Below, piece after piece: positions 1-17,267 of a DNA stretch of 64,000 bases. Below the pieces are notes generated by a model. It was given only the letters and a program-made list of their open reading frames with translations, was not told the DNA's origin and did not search any database. The DNA comes from Thermoproteota archaeon (GTDB taxonomy: Archaea; Korarchaeota; Korarchaeia; Korarchaeales; Korarchaeaceae). The position numbers and the translations under genes were made by a program. Where the stretch lies: assembly GCA_027491395.1 (NCBI GenBank), contig JAOZFI010000006.1, positions 1 through 64,000 on the forward strand. Reading direction: 5' to 3'. Numbering within the stretch: the stretch's first letter is position 1; every line of letters begins with the position of its first letter.

Positions 1-690
<690 letters not shown>

Positions 691-875: not shown

Positions 876-1187
876 GTGATCATATTGAAGATATATGGGA
901 TTGAAAGAGAGTTATTTGCACTTTCTCTCGCAATCCTGTTAATACTGCCGTTAGCAGCCAGTATACCAAACTCCATGGGTGTCTGGATAGGGACCTATGT
1001 AAGAACGTGGTCTATGAAGCGTGCTCACAGGATGGCTAGCTGGGCGCTTGATCAGATTACCGATCCCATCGGATGGGCAATAGGACACCATACTTGGTAC
1101 ACACGCCTCACATCTATTGCACTCATAGCTTATAGTGGCATTGGACCTTATTACGCGGCATTCACGATAGGATTCACTGTAGGGTGA
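876..1187 (+). CDS. small hydrophobic precursor peptide (bacteriocin-like candidate)
   Basis: This is a 103-residue unknown protein. Residues about 12-30 form a hydrophobic, signal-like segment containing ALSLAILLILPL, followed by a small Gly, Trp, Tyr and His-containing region of about 70 residues that ends in a second hydrophobic stretch and a terminal Gly. The GTG start sits at the predicted transcription start. Its stop overlaps the GTG of the next gene, a SpoIIM/DUF95-like protein, so the two are translationally coupled. DUF95 proteins are known partners of circular bacteriocin precursors such as enterocin AS-48. Length, leader and context make a secreted or circularised peptide the best guess, but no family was recognised by sequence. 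An ordinary small membrane protein is the alternative. Confidence 0.6.
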   Translation: MIILKIYGIERELFALSLAILLILPLAASIPNSMGVWIGTYVRTWSMKRAHRMASWALDQITDPIGWAIGHHTWYTRLTSIALIAYSGIGPYYAAFTIGFTVG

Positions 1188-1726
1188 CAGAAATTATTAG
1201 AACATTCTGTTTACCTGAGTTTTTTATTCTAATCATTTATCTATCATCGTTTGTTGTAGGTACATGGTACACCTTTAACGAAAACGGCGCTCGGGATGGA
1301 TCCTTCCATCTGAAGGATATTAAAAATATTAATATAAATTACCTTGATTTCATCAGGATGATATTGTTAAATAATTTAGTGGCAGGTATCTTAATCATTG
1401 TGGGAGGATGGTTGTTCTGCATACCGACTCTCTTAGTCCCCATAGCTTCGGGTTACTTTGCTGGGCTTTACTTTGGAGCCGCTTACAGAGCTTATGGACT
1501 CTTCATTTCCTTAATTTTGTATATCCCCATGCCCTTGGAGATAGCCGCCATAGTTATCCTAGGTCATGTATCCTTCAAGCTATGTAAGGAGAACCTCAGG
1601 AGATTAAGGGGAAACGACTCGGATGCTCCTTTGCTCAGAGGCCATATTAAATCTATCACATACGGTATTTTCCTCATAGTTGTAGGTGCTGTGATTGAGA
1701 CGATTATTCAATTCTACATCGGTTAA
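1184..1726 (+). CDS. SpoIIM/DUF95-like membrane protein
   Basis: This 180-residue protein has about five predicted membrane segments. The central part carries the DUF95/SpoIIM pattern: an NN pair in a helix (LLNNLVAGILI), a Gly-rich stretch (GYFAGLYFG), then a helix beginning PMPLEIAA where other members have HGxxE. Family members are integral membrane proteins of unclear mechanism. They occur in sporulation loci and in circular bacteriocin clusters, where they act in maturation, export or immunity. It is the second gene of a six-gene operon and overlaps its neighbour by four bases. The assignment rests on pattern recognition; a profile search would settle it. Confidence 0.6.
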   Translation: MTEIIRTFCLPEFFILIIYLSSFVVGTWYTFNENGARDGSFHLKDIKNININYLDFIRMILLNNLVAGILIIVGGWLFCIPTLLVPIASGYFAGLYFGAAYRAYGLFISLILYIPMPLEIAAIVILGHVSFKLCKENLRRLRGNDSDAPLLRGHIKSITYGIFLIVVGAVIETIIQFYIG

Positions 1727-1778
1727 ATTCATGAATGAGATCGCCAGGGGAGATTTATGAGGCTATTCTTTTTCCTTC

Positions 1779-2345
1779 ATGCTGGTGCTCCTCACGGGAA
1801 TCATGGTATACCTTTACTTCACTATGCCGTTCTTAAAGCCCAGTACCTCCACATACGCCGAAATGGATGTCCGCATTATAAGGGGATCTTTCCTACTTAC
1901 TCCGGTATTTTCCAGTCTCATAGTCGTCCTGATATGGGCTGTGGAATCTTCTTTAGCCTCGCTCGTCATCAGAAGATCGGTGAGAGGGGCGGAAAGGTCC
2001 CACATAAATTTAGGCGTTATAATGAGCGAATTTTCCTTGAGATACGTTCCTGAATTTATCTTCCTCCTCATAATAGTCCCGCTCGTATGGTTCAACCTCC
2101 CTGAATACACAGTGACCTCTGTGAAGGAGCTTATTAACGCATCTAAGAGCCTAGGAGAGTCTCCACTATACGTAAACGGGATGCTCGCTCTGATTGCTGT
2201 ATCCATATCTCGCTATCCCATATACGCAGCCATACTCAGATACAGATTGGATATAGGATGGAGGGAGACCCTCACTATCATCGCCCTGCTTATCATTGTT
2301 GATACACTCATAGCTTTGTGGGGAGGAGGGTTTCGGCTTAGGTAG
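1779..2345 (+). CDS. multi-spanning membrane protein, Yip1-like architecture
   Basis: This 188-residue protein has about five hydrophobic helices and was not recognised with certainty. A stop codon lies shortly upstream in frame, so ATG 1779 is the only normal start. Topology and spacing of motifs resemble the protein at 13222-13821: a basic loop after the second helix (RRSVRG versus YRSVYKG), then a late loop with IGWRETLTIIALLIIVD matching GMKREDGVAMILMLLLTD. Both follow a SpoIIM-like gene, so the two are probably homologous. Yip1-domain proteins have this size and helix count, but that label is tentative. It may be an immunity or export component. Confidence 0.5.
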   Translation: MLVLLTGIMVYLYFTMPFLKPSTSTYAEMDVRIIRGSFLLTPVFSSLIVVLIWAVESSLASLVIRRSVRGAERSHINLGVIMSEFSLRYVPEFIFLLIIVPLVWFNLPEYTVTSVKELINASKSLGESPLYVNGMLALIAVSISRYPIYAAILRYRLDIGWRETLTIIALLIIVDTLIALWGGGFRLR

Positions 2346-2360
2346 GGGGGTGAGTTAGGC

Positions 2361-3008
2361 ATGAGAACTGAAGATAACCTCATCTTAGAGGTTATAAGGA
2401 TAAGTAAAAGGCTCGGGAAGAGACAGGTGTTAGCAGATGTGAGCTTCGACGTGAGGAATGGAGAGGTAGTCCTCATAAGGGGGCCCAATGGGTCGGGAAA
2501 GACGACGCTTCTAAGAACCATTGCTGGGGTGTTTAGACCAGATTCCGGCCGAGTACTCCTATTGGGAAGAGATGTTCATGAGGACCTGGGTGTGAGGAGA
2601 GAAATTAGTTACTGTCCTGAGAGGCTAGGCCTTCTTGGGGATTACACAATCGAGGATAACATGGTGTTCTTTACCAAGGTGTTCGGGAGATCGTTCGACG
2701 AGCACAGATTTAGAGAGTACGTGAAGGGGTTTCAGCTCGAGGGATACTCGGATGACAAGGTATCCAAGCTCTCGGCTGGGACGAGGAAGAAGGTGGCTAT
2801 CATCAGGACTCTCGTCTTCCCAGCTAGGCTGTACCTGCTTGACGAACCACTAGCTAACCTAGACGATGAGAGCGTGAGCTTTTTAATTGAGGAAATTAGG
2901 AGAATGGCCGATCTAGGATCTTCCTTCCTGATATCTTCTCACATAGAGTTCCCGGCTGCTGATCGTGAATTAGAGATGAGAGGTGGGGGACTTGTCGAGG
3001 TTAGGTGA
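2361..3008 (+). CDS. ABC transporter ATP-binding protein
   Basis: This 215-residue nucleotide-binding subunit energises export or import by the two permeases encoded next to it. The Walker A motif is GPNGSGKTT near residues 39-47, the signature loop is LSAGTRKKVAI rather than canonical LSGGQ, Walker B is LYLLDEP, and the H-loop is SSH. The degenerate signature and short length are common in ABC-2-type peptide and drug exporters. It starts at ATG 2361, 15 bases after the preceding gene, and its end overlaps the first permease. With the upstream small peptide and SpoIIM-like genes, it plausibly exports the peptide or protects the cell from it. Confidence 0.88.
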   Translation: MRTEDNLILEVIRISKRLGKRQVLADVSFDVRNGEVVLIRGPNGSGKTTLLRTIAGVFRPDSGRVLLLGRDVHEDLGVRREISYCPERLGLLGDYTIEDNMVFFTKVFGRSFDEHRFREYVKGFQLEGYSDDKVSKLSAGTRKKVAIIRTLVFPARLYLLDEPLANLDDESVSFLIEEIRRMADLGSSFLISSHIEFPAADRELEMRGGGLVEVR

Positions 3009-3726
3009 CCTAATAGCGGGTCACCTCTACCTAATGGGTGGATTGACCAATGTCAGGGAGATCTTCGTGTTCTTGAGCCCACAGATCCTGTTTTTGGCAC
3101 TAGCTGAGGTCATAGCAGGATCCAGGACGTATACAGAATTATTGATGGTTACTTCGTTGCTTGAGAGTTTTTCCTTAGTCATTACGTATATTCTCCTTGG
3201 TATCGTGGTGCCGGGGAGGCTAATCAGATTAAGCTACTCGATGAGAGATGCCGGAATGATGGAGATATTCCTGAATCAGGGGGTTGGGTTGGATCAGGTA
3301 TTGCTGTCTCTCTGGATCGGTTCGTCCCTAAAATACTCCTTATACGTGATTGCAGGAAGCCTGATAGCCCTGCTCTCTTTATACCTAGCTGGATGGATGA
3401 CAGTAGTCGAATTCCTAACGGCATTGGGCGTGATCGCCGTCATGGTCACACTCTTCTCGGCAATTTGCATTACCCTATCTCTTATCCTTCCTCCCAGTGA
3501 AGCTCAATACTGGTCTCAATTAGTCTTTTTCCTGATCTTCGGATATTTATACTTAGGTTTCCTCAATCCCCGGAATTACAATGATATCGTGAGGCTCTTC
3601 TTGGGCGGATACTTAAACCCCATGTCGCTGGGTGGAGGGGCCATAGCAACCTTTCTCGTAATAGTTTTACTGATAGGATTATCTGAGGAGAGGGGGGATA
3701 TTATTGAAATTGATGAGGTTAAATAA
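2983..3726 (+). CDS. ABC transporter permease subunit (first)
   Basis: This 247-residue integral membrane protein has about six hydrophobic helices and lies directly downstream of the ATPase gene, overlapping it by 26 bases when read from GTG 2983. An ATG at 3034 is a plausible alternative start that would remove the overlap. No family motif was recognised beyond the ABC-2-like layout. It probably forms a heterodimer with the protein at 3704-4390, because both are similar in size and share one ATPase gene. Substrate is unknown; the operon context suggests the hydrophobic peptide encoded at 876-1187. Confidence 0.65.
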   Translation: MGDLSRLGDLIAGHLYLMGGLTNVREIFVFLSPQILFLALAEVIAGSRTYTELLMVTSLLESFSLVITYILLGIVVPGRLIRLSYSMRDAGMMEIFLNQGVGLDQVLLSLWIGSSLKYSLYVIAGSLIALLSLYLAGWMTVVEFLTALGVIAVMVTLFSAICITLSLILPPSEAQYWSQLVFFLIFGYLYLGFLNPRNYNDIVRLFLGGYLNPMSLGGGAIATFLVIVLLIGLSEERGDIIEIDEVK

Positions 3727-4390
3727 TCTAAATGCCCAAATCTCCTTGGAATTGACTTTGCTTGTAAGGGGTAGGGGAAAGAGGATCGGGTGGTTAATTA
3801 GGGTACTTGTAGTCTCCATGGCTGTGCTGTCGCTGGGTCTGCTAAGCTCACTGGAGTTGGGTGATCTCAAAAACATTTACTTGTCGCTCCCGGGTGTATG
3901 GCTCCTGTCTTCAGCCTTGATGATGGATAATACGGTTGAGATAAAGAATAGCGGTCTTGCTGAGATCTTGCTCCAGACATATGGGCCTTCATATTTGGGT
4001 GTGAGGTATCTCCTATATACTGTGGTAACGATACCCCTATCAATATCCTTTATTTTGCTGGGAGGCTCTTCAGTTTCACTAATGGTTGGGGTAGGATTAT
4101 CAGGTTTGGATGTCATTCCCTTGCTATCTCTCTCCGTCATAGGTTCAACGGCTTTAATGACCGTTACAGTCTTATTATCGGTGAAAATTGGTGGCCTGAG
4201 GTTATTAGACACATTTTCCCTAGCAAGTGGCGGACTTACCCTCCTCCTGATCATTTCCATGCCTTTTATATTGGAGGCGCTAAAGCAAGAGGTGCTTGCG
4301 TGCATGCTGCTCGTCGGGACATTCTCCATAGCTGCTCTGACTACGGTGTACCTTATGAAACATGACTTTCCGGCATTATTAACGGTCTAA
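3704..4390 (+). CDS. ABC transporter permease subunit (second)
   Basis: This 228-residue membrane protein has about six hydrophobic helices and is the last gene of the operon, overlapping the first permease by 23 bases. The N-terminus carries a basic cytoplasmic stretch (LLVRGRGKRIGW) before the first helix, as in ABC-2-type permeases. It was not assigned to a named family. The overlapping arrangement with 2983-3726 and the single ATPase indicates a heteromeric transporter. The next 400 bases are non-coding, which marks the operon end. Confidence 0.65.
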   Translation: MKLMRLNNLNAQISLELTLLVRGRGKRIGWLIRVLVVSMAVLSLGLLSSLELGDLKNIYLSLPGVWLLSSALMMDNTVEIKNSGLAEILLQTYGPSYLGVRYLLYTVVTIPLSISFILLGGSSVSLMVGVGLSGLDVIPLLSLSVIGSTALMTVTVLLSVKIGGLRLLDTFSLASGGLTLLLIISMPFILEALKQEVLACMLLVGTFSIAALTTVYLMKHDFPALLTV

Positions 4391-10919: not shown

Positions 10920-11156
10920 TTAGCAGTCCCTCTCCAATAGTTCGAAGTACTTTTCTCTGGTAAGCCCCGCCTCGGCCATTATAACCCTTATAAGTCCGGG
11001 CTTAAGCTTCTTTCCAGGGTGTACGGGTACTACTATCCTGACGTGTTGCTCATTCACTAGTATCACGTGGGAGCCTCTTTGCCGTATAGGTTTGAATCCA
11101 AGCTTACTAAGTATCTTAATGAGCTTATAAGGATCTATGGGTGTTATTTTAGGCAA
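10920..11156 (-). CDS. hicA: HicA-family mRNA interferase toxin
   Basis: This 78-residue protein has the dsRNA-binding-like HicA fold. LIKILSKLGFKPIRQRGSHV carries the catalytic His in GSH, and it is followed by the VVPVHPGKKLKPGLIRVI segment typical of the family (HP-G near the middle, Leu-rich last helix). HicA toxins cleave mRNA and are blocked by HicB. The ATG at 11156 overlaps the end of hicB by eight bases, with antitoxin upstream of toxin. All family hallmarks look intact, unlike the decayed copy at 7271-7413. Confidence 0.9.
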   Translation of the reverse strand: MPKITPIDPYKLIKILSKLGFKPIRQRGSHVILVNEQHVRIVVPVHPGKKLKPGLIRVIMAEAGLTREKYFELLERDC

Positions 11157-11385
11157 CGGCTTTCACTCTCTGAAGACCTACCACCCTACGGCTTAACAGT
11201 TCCTTCTTTTCCTCCTCAGAGAGTGTTTCGAGGTATAGCTCAATTGCTTCCCTAACATTACTGATCACCTCATCTAGACTATCGCCTTGGGTATGGCATC
11301 CAGGGAGTTCCGGGACGATCGCGACGTATCCTCCGCCCTCATCCTCCAATATAATAACACTAAACTCGCGAATCCTCCTGTCCAT
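11149..11385 (-). CDS. hicB: HicB-family antitoxin
   Basis: This 78-residue antitoxin has the same layout as the copy at 7406-7642: EFSVIILEDEGGGYVAIVPE, PGCHTQGDSLDEV, then an amphipathic helix. It is the first gene of an intact hicBA pair and overlaps hicA by eight bases. No separate HTH or RHH DNA-binding domain is seen, so autoregulation, if any, would need another factor. Confidence 0.88.
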   Translation of the reverse strand: MDRRIREFSVIILEDEGGGYVAIVPELPGCHTQGDSLDEVISNVREAIELYLETLSEEEKKELLSRRVVGLQRVKAVA

Positions 11386-13221: not shown

Positions 13222-13821
13222 TTAGGGATAGGGTGCGTTATTTTTTAATAATTGTTGGGCAGCAACCTTTGGATAATATATTCTCAGCACTATGTCTGTC
13301 AAAAGAAGCATGAGTATCATCGCTACACCGTCCTCCCTCTTCATCCCATATCTATGATTGAAAACGCGATAGAAGTAGATGAAGGATAGAGTCGAGAAGG
13401 AAGTATCGATTAGCGCCTTGATTGATGAGTATAGCTCGATACTAGATGCTCCTATAATGGGAAGAAGCACCAGATCCGTTATCAGTGATATAGACGAAAA
13501 GAGAAAGTAAAAAGACACAACACCCAGTATTGGGGAGAGTGGGCCCTTATACACGCTTCTATAAAACAAGAAGAGGTAAGTTAGTGCTCCCAGCAGGCCC
13601 CAGAGTAGGGCTCCGGTGAAGCTGCTTCCTAACAACACAAAATATGCGATAACATATGGGGGAATGGATTGATTGGCTACACCCAGCTCGTTCAGGACGA
13701 TCATTAGGTACAAGGATTGAGTACCCGTGTAGAGCAGGTATAGGAGAAGGGGCCTTCTCCTATTGGATGGAGGGTTATTGTTAAGCAGATCCGGATTTTC
13801 TTCTCTTCTACGTATGGCCAT
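13222..13821 (-). CDS. multi-spanning membrane protein of the second peptide locus, Yip1-like
   Basis: This 199-residue protein has a charged N-terminal tail rich in Arg and Asn, then about five hydrophobic helices. It is the last gene of a four-gene operon and overlaps the SpoIIM-like gene by 14 bases. Helix order and loop motifs match the protein at 1779-2345 (YRSVYKGP and GMKREDGVAMILMLLLTD). The equal position in two peptide loci suggests a conserved partner. The family assignment (Yip1-like) is tentative; immunity, export or processing are all possible roles. Confidence 0.5.
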   Translation of the reverse strand: MAIRRREENPDLLNNNPPSNRRRPLLLYLLYTGTQSLYLMIVLNELGVANQSIPPYVIAYFVLLGSSFTGALLWGLLGALTYLFLFYRSVYKGPLSPILGVVSFYFLFSSISLITDLVLLPIIGASSIELYSSIKALIDTSFSTLSFIYFYRVFNHRYGMKREDGVAMILMLLLTDIVLRIYYPKVAAQQLLKNNAPYP

Positions 13822-14341
13822 TTAACTTCACCAAGATGCAAGGTATTGAGAGATAATATTCTATAACTGATGATGATATTATCATAATTAAACTTAATAA
13901 CGCTAATTTTGTTAAATAAACTAAATGATCTCTGGAGAGGTCGTAGGGATCCCCGCCATGGATTACCGTTACGGCGCTCGAAAGACCTACGGATGAGGAT
14001 ATGAGGATGGAGGTGATCTCCAGCGGCCCGTGGAATAGAAAGCAGGGGAGTGCACCTGTCAAGTTTTCTCTGAGAATTTCCCTAAAGATGCTACCTACCA
14101 CCATGCCGTTGAAGCTAAGGGAGAGAGCCGTGAGCGTTCCAAGTGTCACATACCCTATGGAAAGAATCAGGATAACGGAACTGTTCAAGAGGATAAGTCC
14201 GCGTAAATTATAATGTCCATTAAAGGGATGAGGAACAAAAACTCCACCTGACCCTTCCGTGTAAGATTGATCTGGGATCAGGAAGCTTCCTAAGATCCCG
14301 GCCGCATAGAAGAGCGATGCTAAGATCAGTCCCTCACTCAT
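13808..14341 (-). CDS. SpoIIM/DUF95-like membrane protein of the second peptide locus
   Basis: This 177-residue protein shows a clear SpoIIM/DUF95 signature: a helix with small residues (GTLTALSLSFNGMVVGSIF), then CFLFHGPLEITSILI carrying the HGxxE motif, in a four- to five-helix protein. DUF95 members accompany circular bacteriocin precursors in bacteria. The start at 14341 is preferred over 14368 because it leaves a tight eight-base overlap with the protease gene. The operon order peptide, M48 protease, SpoIIM, multi-spanning protein parallels 876-2345. Confidence 0.7.
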   Translation of the reverse strand: MSEGLILASLFYAAGILGSFLIPDQSYTEGSGGVFVPHPFNGHYNLRGLILLNSSVILILSIGYVTLGTLTALSLSFNGMVVGSIFREILRENLTGALPCFLFHGPLEITSILISSSVGLSSAVTVIHGGDPYDLSRDHLVYLTKLALLSLIMIISSSVIEYYLSIPCILVKLNGHT

Positions 14342-15305
14342 CCTCGGGCCTTGTTTCGTCCCTACCATGGCTCATCCTCCTGATGATCTCTATTCTCTTC
14401 TCCAAGCTAGGATGCGTTGGAAGTAGGGAGGGGGTTTCCTTCATTCCATATATTTTGATCAGAGCGTTTATCAGATCCTCTGGATTTGAGTAAGATGCTG
14501 CAATGAGATCGGCCTTCACCTCCCTCCTCCTTATCAGGATTAAGAAGACCGACAACGCTGCCAAGAAGCCAGTCACCACTAGCAGAAAGCTTACGGGATC
14601 GCGTGTCGTTACTGTCCCCGTTAAGGAGGAGAGTACTTCGCCTACAAGGAGTAGCATCGCGTACATCAGTAGTGTGTAGCCCAGATACCTGACGATGTCT
14701 CCTTCTTTATAATGGGCGAGCTCGTGGGCCAACACGCTCTTGATCTCTCCATTAGACAGCACCTTAAGCAGATCCTCATTTACGAAGACAGTTGGTTGAA
14801 TGATTCCCCCAAGAAGCGTAGTTTTCATTAGAGAGGATCTGAATAATCGGAGCCTTATATCCTTCCTGATCCCCATCTTTCCCTTAAGATCCTCGAAAAC
14901 CCTCTTCAGATCATCTGGGGGATCCTTTCCTTGACCAATCTTATCGAAAATTAAGGGAACCAGATTAACCGTGACGAACAGTACTACGAGAAAAGTGGAG
15001 AATTCGACTAGGATGCTGTGGCTGGGAAGTGAGGAGATTACAGCAGCATAGATGAAGATTAGATATAAATCGAAGTAATTGAGCAGGAGATCCTTGAATA
15101 ATCTCCTAGTTCCCGGGCTTTCCTTACTCAGAATAGAGTCCATAAGAGAGAGAATTATGGCAGTTAGTATCAAGATTACGAATCCAGTTATAAGAGGGTT
15201 AAGCCCATAATTAACCACGATGAATACACTAAGGGACATCATAGCTATGGCTATGAGAGCCATCACCAAGTTGTAAAGAGAAAAAAATGTAGGATTAGTT
15301 CTCAA
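14334..15305 (-). CDS. M48-family membrane metalloprotease (HtpX-like)
   Basis: This 323-residue integral membrane zinc protease has four N-terminal hydrophobic helices. The soluble domain contains HELAHYKEGD, the HExxH zinc site with catalytic Glu, in the context VLAHELAH. The third ligand is probably Glu in RRREVKADLIAA about 75 residues later, between further hydrophobic segments. HtpX proteins normally degrade membrane proteins. Here the gene sits ten bases behind a small hydrophobic peptide gene and overlaps a DUF95 gene, so it is a good candidate for removing the leader of the peptide. The housekeeping HtpX role is the alternative. Confidence 0.88.
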   Translation of the reverse strand: MRTNPTFFSLYNLVMALIAIAMMSLSVFIVVNYGLNPLITGFVILILTAIILSLMDSILSKESPGTRRLFKDLLLNYFDLYLIFIYAAVISSLPSHSILVEFSTFLVVLFVTVNLVPLIFDKIGQGKDPPDDLKRVFEDLKGKMGIRKDIRLRLFRSSLMKTTLLGGIIQPTVFVNEDLLKVLSNGEIKSVLAHELAHYKEGDIVRYLGYTLLMYAMLLLVGEVLSSLTGTVTTRDPVSFLLVVTGFLAALSVFLILIRRREVKADLIAASYSNPEDLINALIKIYGMKETPSLLPTHPSLEKRIEIIRRMSHGRDETRPEDE

Positions 15306-15315
15306 TACAGATCCC

Positions 15316-15561
15316 TTACCCTATTAGGAAACTACCTACTGCTACAAGAGCGCCGGCTAAACCCGTAATTGGAGTACTGCATGCTGCTATTTTTGCTAGG
15401 GCTAAGAAGTACCCTCCTAGTGCCACTGCAGCTGCTCCATAATTACCTCTAGCAAGTAGATAGCCTACTCCCAACTGAGTTGCTGCAGGTGTTAATATAG
15501 GAAGTACCAATATTGCTATATTGAGGGCGAGAAGGGCTAGGGCTTTCTTTTCTGCCTCCAT
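15316..15561 (-). CDS. small hydrophobic precursor peptide, second locus (bacteriocin-like candidate)
   Basis: This 81-residue protein begins MEAEKKALALLALNIAILVL, a charged N-terminus and hydrophobic leader, then a Gly- and Ala-rich region with one cysteine that ends in GSFLIG. The leader motif ALNIAILVLPIL is very like ALSLAILLILPL of the peptide at 876-1187, and both proteins end in a hydrophobic pair plus Gly. GGGGGTGAT just before ATG 15561 is a good ribosome-binding site. It is the first gene of the operon with the M48 protease and SpoIIM-like protein. Mature size after leader removal would be about 55 residues, in the range of circular bacteriocins. Function is inferred from context only. 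Confidence 0.6.
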   Translation of the reverse strand: MEAEKKALALLALNIAILVLPILTPAATQLGVGYLLARGNYGAAAVALGGYFLALAKIAACSTPITGLAGALVAVGSFLIG

Positions 15562-15925
15562 TTCATCACCCCCTGAGGATATTATTCTCTTAATTTGGGA
15601 AATATTATAAAAATATTGCGCGTAATCTACCTTTTTTATAAAAAAGGAAGAACACTGAAAAATTTGAAGATGACAGCATCCTTAGGGTAGAATCATCTGT
15701 CTAGATTTCAACAGAAGTGGGTATGCTAAATTGATTCAAGTGAGAAGGTTCTATTTTATGAGATTCTAGGAGGACTCTCATGAGGCATTTAAGCTAGAGA
15801 TAGTTGCTGCCAATCGACTAAAAGGTTCTACATTGAAATATTAATCCCAATTAATTAGATTCGGTTTATGCTCCCCTTATCAGTCAAAATCTCCCAATCT
15901 CCAATAGCTAATCGATTTTTCACAC
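15562..15925 (-). promoter_or_regulatory. A+T-rich upstream region of the second peptide operon, with palindrome
   Basis: TATA-like A+T stretches lie at about 15595-15615, 35-55 bases before the start of the peptide gene. Further upstream the 18-base perfect palindrome CCTTTTTTATAAAAAAGG spans 15630-15647 and could be a repressor site. The rest to 15925 holds no gene that could be recognised. Confidence 0.45.
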
Positions 15926-16289: not shown

Positions 16290-17267
16290 TCACCTTTCCC
16301 TTGACCTCCTAACCGCTCTACTCCTAAGCCTTCCCACCTCTTCCTCCGGAATGTACCACCTGCCAGCCAGCTTGACCGCCTTCAAGTACCCCTTCCTAGC
16401 AAGCTGCCCCAAGTAGTCGACGCTCATCCCAAGCTCCTTGGCCGCCGTCGATAGGAGAACCATGCCCTCCAGCGATCCCAGGTAGAGGGTCAGGCTCTCG
16501 TCCACCGCCCTCGCCACGAGGTTAGTTATGGGTCTGGCCCTTCCCCTGTCGGCCTCCTCCAAAGCCATGTAGTAGGCCCTCCGCCTCTCCTTCCTTATGA
16601 TGGCCAGTGGGTAGCCCCGTCTCAACAGGAGGAGGTTCATCAGGAGCCTGGCCACCCTCCCGTTCCCATCGGTGAAGGGGTGTATGGCCGTGAGGTAGGC
16701 GTGGGCCACGGCAGCCAGCTCGATCGGATGGAGTTCATCGGAATTCATGGCGCCGTTCAACCAATCAACGAACCTCCTCATCAATCCCGGTACTTCCGAG
16801 GGAGGGGGAGGTACGTGACCCGATCCACCGATGAAGACCTGTTCCCTCCTGTACTCGCCCGGTCTCGCTTCCCATATTCCCATCATCACGAGGTGGTGCA
16901 GCTTGAGTAGGTCGAACTCCTCCACCCTCTCAGCGCGAGAGAGATCCTCCACGTACCTCAGAGCTTGAAGGTGGTTCCTAGCCTCCAAATGATCTCTCAG
17001 GGGCTTTCCTGCTACAGTTATACCCTCCTCTAGCACGAGCCTCGTCTCCCTGAGGGTGAGGATGTTCCCCTCTATGGCGTTAGTGTTGTAGACGTACTCT
17101 ATCGTCAGGAGGTTCCTCAGCCTAGCTAGGGCCTCTCTGCTGAGCGGACGCTCGGAGCTGATTCTCTTGAATCCCTCCTCTATCCTCGCCATGAGCGCCG
17201 GGGCTATCAGCGGGGACCTAGCTTGTTCCAGCAGGAGAAACCTGTATCGACTAATCATGCTTTCCAT
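16290..17267 (-). CDS. Fic-domain AMP-transferase family protein with C-terminal HTH
   Basis: This 325-residue Fic protein has the core motif HPFTDGNGRVARLLMN, with catalytic His and the phosphate-binding Gly-Asn-Gly-Arg intact. Near residue 62 the sequence TNAIEG fits the (S/T)xxxE(G/N) inhibitory helix, which places it in class II (N-terminal inhibition in the same chain). The C-terminal 50 residues (STAAKELGMSVDYLGQLARK, then GRWYIPEEEV) form a MerR/excisionase-like helix-turn-helix. A TATA-like TTTATATAG about 25 bases upstream fits a leaderless start at 17267. The target protein is unknown. Such solitary Fic genes are mobile and often lie in accessory regions, as here. Confidence 0.9.
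   Translation of the reverse strand: MESMISRYRFLLLEQARSPLIAPALMARIEEGFKRISSERPLSREALARLRNLLTIEYVYNTNAIEGNILTLRETRLVLEEGITVAGKPLRDHLEARNHLQALRYVEDLSRAERVEEFDLLKLHHLVMMGIWEARPGEYRREQVFIGGSGHVPPPPSEVPGLMRRFVDWLNGAMNSDELHPIELAAVAHAYLTAIHPFTDGNGRVARLLMNLLLLRRGYPLAIIRKERRRAYYMALEEADRGRARPITNLVARAVDESLTLYLGSLEGMVLLSTAAKELGMSVDYLGQLARKGYLKAVKLAGRWYIPEEEVGRLRSRAVRRSRER

Follow-up and report, generated by a model that had tools for sequence, protein, structure and literature searches.

Clusters for head-to-tail cyclised bacteriocins are recognised in bacteria by a gene of the SpoIIM/DUF95 family (PF01944), which defines the class and serves as its mining marker (PMC13289728, PMC5695211, PMC8534725), and DUF95 proteins take part in immunity (PMC5695211). 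An ATP-binding cassette (ABC) gene is present in all published circular-bacteriocin clusters (PMC8534725), and no enzyme has been identified for leader removal or ring closure (PMC8659200, PMC8534725, PMC10028692). Among the bacterial clusters, two of group 1 contain an M48 peptidase gene, and M50 genes are found in group 6 (PMC8659200) and in group 10 (PMC8534725). The DNA analysed here (the window) is a 64,000-nucleotide (nt) stretch of contig JAOZFI010000006.1 from a Thermoproteota archaeon of the family Korarchaeaceae, and it carries at 13222-15561 on the minus strand a tight four-gene operon, locus B, for a small peptide, an M48 protease, a SpoIIM protein and a further membrane protein. 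With a probability of roughly 0.55, locus B is read as a circular-bacteriocin-like archaeocin module in which the M48 protease is a candidate leader peptidase. Bacteria are already known to have clusters that pair a peptide with SpoIIM; what varies here is that the members are archaeal and that M48 stands where the ABC genes would be.

The four minus-strand open reading frames (ORFs) claimed in an earlier note on this DNA all lie where it placed them, its SpoIIM end at 14341 being that of the version begun at an inner ATG instead of at 14368. The M48 gene starts with TTG, 10 nt past the peptide stop codon, the SpoIIM gene overlaps the end of the M48 gene, and the gene for the 199-amino-acid (aa) membrane protein shares 14 nt with the end of the SpoIIM gene. 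The peptide ATG is directly preceded by a strong ribosome site, GGGGGTGATG, and the TATA-like stretch of the upstream region may, from its letters, act as the promoter. These four genes occur, in unchanged order, in a second assembly (JALSOH010000004.1), that of a sister species (G001) of the metagenome-assembled genome holding the window (G000). In comparison with the orthologues in G001, the ratio of nonsynonymous to synonymous rates (dN/dS) comes to 0.11 for the peptide, 0.24 for M48, 0.22 for SpoIIM and 0.15 for the 199-aa protein. The two peptides are 93% identical; the 26 differences between their genes are distributed 8/1/17 over the codon positions, 19 of the 26 are synonymous (P = 1.8e-6), and no alternative frame is open on either strand. 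The low dN/dS, together with the excess of third-position and synonymous differences, therefore indicates that the peptide ORF did not arise by chance but is translated and under constraint. The synonymous distance of the peptide gene between the sister species (15316-15561 versus L054:7790-8035) is 0.36, above that of its three operon partners (0.11-0.21).

The 81-aa peptide has a lysine-bearing N-terminus, a hydrophobic leader-like helix at residues ~2-19, a Pro/Thr-containing link at 21-26 and an Ala/Gly-rich core of ~55 aa (42% A+G, grand average of hydropathy 1.2, net charge +2). An AlphaFold2 model built on 2 sequences, with a mean predicted local distance difference test score (pLDDT) of 73, places the leader helix at 2-19 and core helices at 26-37, 41-59 and 63-80. 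The peptide is accordingly built as a short hydrophobic precursor with a leader and a helical core in the range of ~55-70 aa, and this anatomy suggests a leader cut near residue 26. The SpoIIM protein of locus B scores 46 bits in PF01944 (E = 6.6e-12), over the cut-off of 26.9, and carries the motif HGPLE and a conserved C-terminal Glu, which bears out the assignment as a SpoIIM/DUF95 protein with an HGxxE motif. Altogether, locus B is very probably a precursor cluster of the SpoIIM type.

Positive controls were the plasmids of plantacyclin B21AG and gassericin A, retrieved via the gassericin core; lactocyclicin/leucocyclicin-type and carnocyclin cores had retrieved no bacterial control. The control clusters comprise a 91-aa precursor with a 33-aa hydrophobic leader and an Ala/Gly-rich core, a SpoIIM protein of 157-162 aa, an ABC ATPase and an ABC-2 permease, and the plantacyclin plasmid has a 54-aa ORF between the SpoIIM and ATPase genes. 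Locus B is like this type in its small hydrophobic precursor, leader helix and Ala/Gly-rich core, and in having a SpoIIM gene nearby with an extra membrane protein; the control cores end in small or hydrophobic residues, as do those of the window. A second locus of the window, locus A (876-4390), also has an ATPase and permeases, placed as in the controls, and is collinear with the gassericin A and plantacyclin clusters. Locus B differs from the bacterial type in that it is archaeal, has no precursor-family match, and has M48 in place of the ABC genes, and its ring closure is a proposal. In PF01944 the SpoIIM proteins of the controls score no more than 28-34 bits, against 46 (locus B) and 58 (locus A) for those of the window; in an alignment, the control proteins and locus B agree at NG, HGxxE and the C-terminal Glu. 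In a SpoIIM tree, the A, B and bacterial control groups are each coherent, and long branches leave their deep order unsettled.

The M48 protein matches PF01435 (E = 5.8e-22), with the zinc motif H194-E195-xx-H198 (HELAH) and the third-ligand motif E262xxxD266 intact, and these active-site residues are invariant among the relatives that cover them. Its hydropathy profile has ~4 hydrophobic segments before HExxH and 2 between it and ExxxD. HtpX and CAAX prenyl protease 1 (Ste24) share HExxH, ExxxD and membrane segments on both sides, and a phmmer match to Ste24 structures (E = 0.0013) aligns the zinc sites. The description as an M48/HtpX-like protease with an intact HExxH is thus correct, yet the protein is not an HtpX equivalog: its best score is 40.7 bits against an NCBIfam cut-off of 341, and it belongs to a genus-restricted subfamily. 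At a membership threshold of E below 1e-50, that subfamily has six copies; the 5 genomes that hold them, out of 374 archaeal ones, are members of one genus. Four of the six adjoin SpoIIM: the B-type loci in G000, G001 and a third species, G003 (where the contig ends inside M48), and a further G003 locus, L061, in which ORFs of 113, 97 and 113 aa are followed by SpoIIM and M48. The L061 SpoIIM lies outside the B clade and groups with the type found in the class of genome G055, presumably Thermococci (support 87/77, long branches), so that one M48 subfamily is tied to two SpoIIM lineages. By a rough estimate, a random gene would adjoin one of the handful of small SpoIIM genes with a chance of ~1% or less, and two separate M48-SpoIIM links are therefore unlikely to have arisen by chance.

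Bacterial precedent also bears on the protease, as the M48 (group 1) and M50 (groups 6 and 10) clusters also combine SpoIIM and a precursor with a gene for a membrane zinc peptidase. In the M48 clusters of PMC8659200, M48 lies three genes downstream of the precursor gene and the clusters also contain transporter genes, whereas in locus B it stands directly behind the precursor; this likeness is one of cluster layout as published. Because of the position directly behind the precursor and the bacterial M48 and M50 precedents, leader removal by M48 is the best-supported proposal for its role. The suggestion that the protease is a leader peptidase is kept as a hypothesis, to which one subfamily beside two SpoIIM lineages and M48 in two bacterial clusters lend weight, and the genomic linkage tips the balance slightly towards M48 cutting the peptide leader.

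On this proposal, the 81-aa precursor would be made and its leader helix would enter the membrane, where M48, taking the place of the host peptidase assumed for classical clusters, would cut near residue 26 and free the ~55-aa core. SpoIIM, alone or with the 199-aa protein, may help join the ends and protect the producer, as suggested by the leucocyclicin Q work cited in PMC5695211. Export would run via SpoIIM and the 199-aa protein or via the host, locus B being without an ABC exporter, and the core would act on the membranes of close competitors. An antagonistic function is probable, while a ring-shaped product is about as likely as not; that the dedicated M48 removes the leader and also joins the core ends, or passes an activated end to SpoIIM, without an ABC exporter, is doubtful. 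In that last case, M48 would be the first enzyme for the maturation of circular bacteriocins to be encoded in the cluster itself. The earlier idea of antagonistic peptides with self-protection is retained in a more definite form, that of a head-to-tail cyclised bacteriocin cluster, to which the SpoIIM gene and the collinear controls point.

Small SpoIIM genes recur beyond the window. Most well-sequenced genomes of the phylum carry a single long SpoIIM (475-577 aa), and a few have extra small ones (two in G000, four in G001, five in G003, one each in G015 and G022), surrounded by short hydrophobic peptides and small membrane proteins of several unrelated sets. A leader-like hydrophobic N-terminal segment followed by a ~55-80-aa core is found in nearly all precursor candidates of the compared modules. 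In the class of G055, PF01944 occurs in 109 of 115 genomes, with more than one copy in about two dozen, and 18 precursors beside extra SpoIIM copies (from L064, L084-L093, L095 and L096) share the leader MWRKAL(A/V)LGLVLMAIGMVVGG at a median identity of 81% over 21 aa; their cores are unrelated, at a median identity of only 23%. A constant leader with variable cores is typical of ribosomal peptides that share one processing machinery. The expectation of a recurring system thus holds for the peptide-SpoIIM pair, which is present in several locus types of the genus and in many genomes of the G055 class, but not for the exact arrangement with M48.

Several observations weigh against the bacteriocin reading of locus B. 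The complete peptide-M48-SpoIIM order is found in two sister species only, plus the third that is cut inside M48. M48 is missing from most archaeal SpoIIM modules and hence is not universally needed, and the G006 copy (L097) has neither SpoIIM nor a peptide alongside, so M48 may have another job; the G015 copy (L098) lies at a contig edge, and its visible side is without SpoIIM. An ABC ATP-binding protein, part of the cluster definition in PMC8534725, was not found in locus B; locus A has one (2361-3008). Searches with the peptide gave no match in Pfam or NCBIfam at E<=1, none in PHROGs or PADLOC and none by sequence in the PDB, and it matches none of the known precursor families PF12173, PF09221 and TIGR03651, although gassericin, as the control for that search, matches PF12173 at 4e-50. 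Such a missing family match could be expected, because cores vary from cluster to cluster. A PDB fold search with the peptide model gave nothing with E below 1, so the fold evidence is neutral. Furthermore, loci A and B had been described as sharing the same core; the layout and the SpoIIM pair, both PF01944, support this, but the "five-helix" proteins that follow (13222-13821 versus 1779-2345) do not, their homology being rejected at an hhalign probability of 0.2%. A further difference between the loci is that locus B has no ABC exporter and has M48 between the peptide and SpoIIM.

The archaeal SpoIIM family has itself been proposed, in the passages of PMC5898192 that concern it, to act in membrane remodelling and vesicles, a further point against an antimicrobial role. 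On this basis locus B could be an envelope-stress or membrane-remodelling module in which SpoIIM bends or remodels the membrane, M48 performs HtpX-like quality control, as M48/HtpX proteins are known to do, and the peptide, as a small membrane protein, has a structural role; the lone M48 in G006 would fit. The small SpoIIM genes, unlike the long one that most genomes keep, are patchy and strain-specific, and each module has an unrelated peptide, which makes such a role unlikely. Moreover, archaeal DUF95 (arCOG01996) is listed among the commonest families of dark-matter islands, a sign of conflict or mobile genes, in the part of PMC4158269 that treats them, where no function is stated; arCOG01994 and arCOG01996 are the same family as the locus B SpoIIM, and the relevant passages of the two papers draw no link to precursor peptides.

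The same peptide could instead be a linear or otherwise processed signal, with M48 making a pheromone from a membrane-bound precursor and SpoIIM and the 199-aa protein exporting or sensing it. Membrane metalloproteases are known as pheromone processors, the peptide is 93% identical between the sister species, no ABC exporter is present and ring closure is itself a proposal; the operon, however, has no receptor or regulator gene, and peptides wholly different between neighbouring modules fit antagonism better, which leaves signalling improbable. Least probable is a locus for immunity or resistance only, in which M48 and SpoIIM would degrade or exclude a foreign bacteriocin and the 81-aa peptide would be an immunity peptide. 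DUF95 has a role in immunity (PMC5695211) and bacterial clusters do use small hydrophobic peptides as immunity proteins, but this peptide has the leader and Ala/Gly core of a precursor, and its gene comes first in the operon, as precursor genes do. The bacteriocin reading is preferred. With precursor, SpoIIM and M48 protease among only four genes, the locus is compact enough for leader loss and ring closure to be studied on it directly. It also offers a possible function for the small SpoIIM/DUF95 genes frequent in archaeal dark-matter islands (PMC4158269), and it points to a largely unread archaeal stock of antimicrobial peptides, chiefly in the G055 class. No report of archaeal circular-bacteriocin clusters was found in the literature searched; a 2019 mBio survey of archaeal antimicrobial peptides could mention some.

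Table 1. Features of loci A and B in the window, and related SpoIIM modules in other genomes.
Locus	Feature	Position	Strand	Basis or remark
B	Precursor peptide candidate, 81 aa	15316-15561	-	ORF, ribosome site GGGGGTGAT
B	M48 membrane zinc metalloprotease, 323 aa	14334-15305	-	PF01435 5.8e-22
B	SpoIIM/DUF95 membrane protein, 186 aa	13808-14368	-	PF01944 6.6e-12, HGPLE
B	Membrane protein, 199 aa, 4-5 helices	13222-13821	-	No known family
B	Upstream region: A/T-rich TATA-like stretch TTTTTATAATATTT and Shine-Dalgarno GGGGGTGATG	15562-15700	-	Sequence reading
A	Precursor candidate, 103 aa, leader-like N-terminal helix	876-1187	+	G003 orthologue 53% identical (protein)
A	SpoIIM/DUF95, 180 aa, motif HG lost, Glu kept	1184-1726	+	PF01944 1.6e-15
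A	Membrane protein, 188 aa	1779-2345	+	Position matches 13222-13821
A	ABC ATPase	2361-3008	+	PF00005 2.2e-30
A	Two ABC-2-type permease candidates, 247 and 228 aa	2983-3726, 3704-4390	+	Hydrophobic ORFs
L054	Orthologue of locus B (G001)
L055, L059	Orthologues of locus A
L056/L062	86-aa peptide, 61-aa protein, SpoIIM, 235-248-aa protein
L057	94-aa peptide, 136-aa protein, SpoIIM
L058	B-type end, then second module: 91-aa peptide, 102/111-aa paralogues, SpoIIM, 237-aa protein

The 199-aa protein, a candidate immunity or transport partner, has no significant match in Pfam, NCBIfam, PHROG or PADLOC, and its orthologue in G003 is 53% identical. Its AlphaFold2 model (pLDDT 52) was too weak, and a fold search with it gave nothing usable. 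Comparison of the "five-helix" proteins with the third genes of L056 and L058 gave hhalign probabilities of 0.1-0.2%, and a Yip1 identity for them was dropped, as Pfam gives it no support. The first locus A permease candidate has a weak PF13346 match (E = 0.38), and locus A begins ~200 bases past the 3' end of a large-subunit ribosomal RNA gene (window 1-681).

Module arrangements vary elsewhere. In G003 two SpoIIM modules stand in direct tandem (L058:4179-7826), and the 102- and 111-aa paralogous small membrane proteins of the second are candidate immunity proteins; at L061:6090-7051, upstream of SpoIIM and M48, the two 113-aa membrane proteins that flank the 97-aa ORF are paralogous. At L063:5532-7391 (G022) a CPBP/Rce1-type protease (PF02517, 2.2e-10) comes after a small SpoIIM gene, with a weak M50-like protein on the opposite strand. 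In the G055 class, four modules follow one another at L084, and some of the copies, in L085 and L093, are broken. An origin from a virus or plasmid was considered and rejected: no SpoIIM relatives were found in viral contigs, PHROG gave weak matches for M48 only and PADLOC gave none. Within the window, a Fic/DOC family protein with a helix-turn-helix domain is encoded just upstream of the locus B operon (16290-17267), and a HicA/HicB toxin-antitoxin pair lies at 10920-11385.
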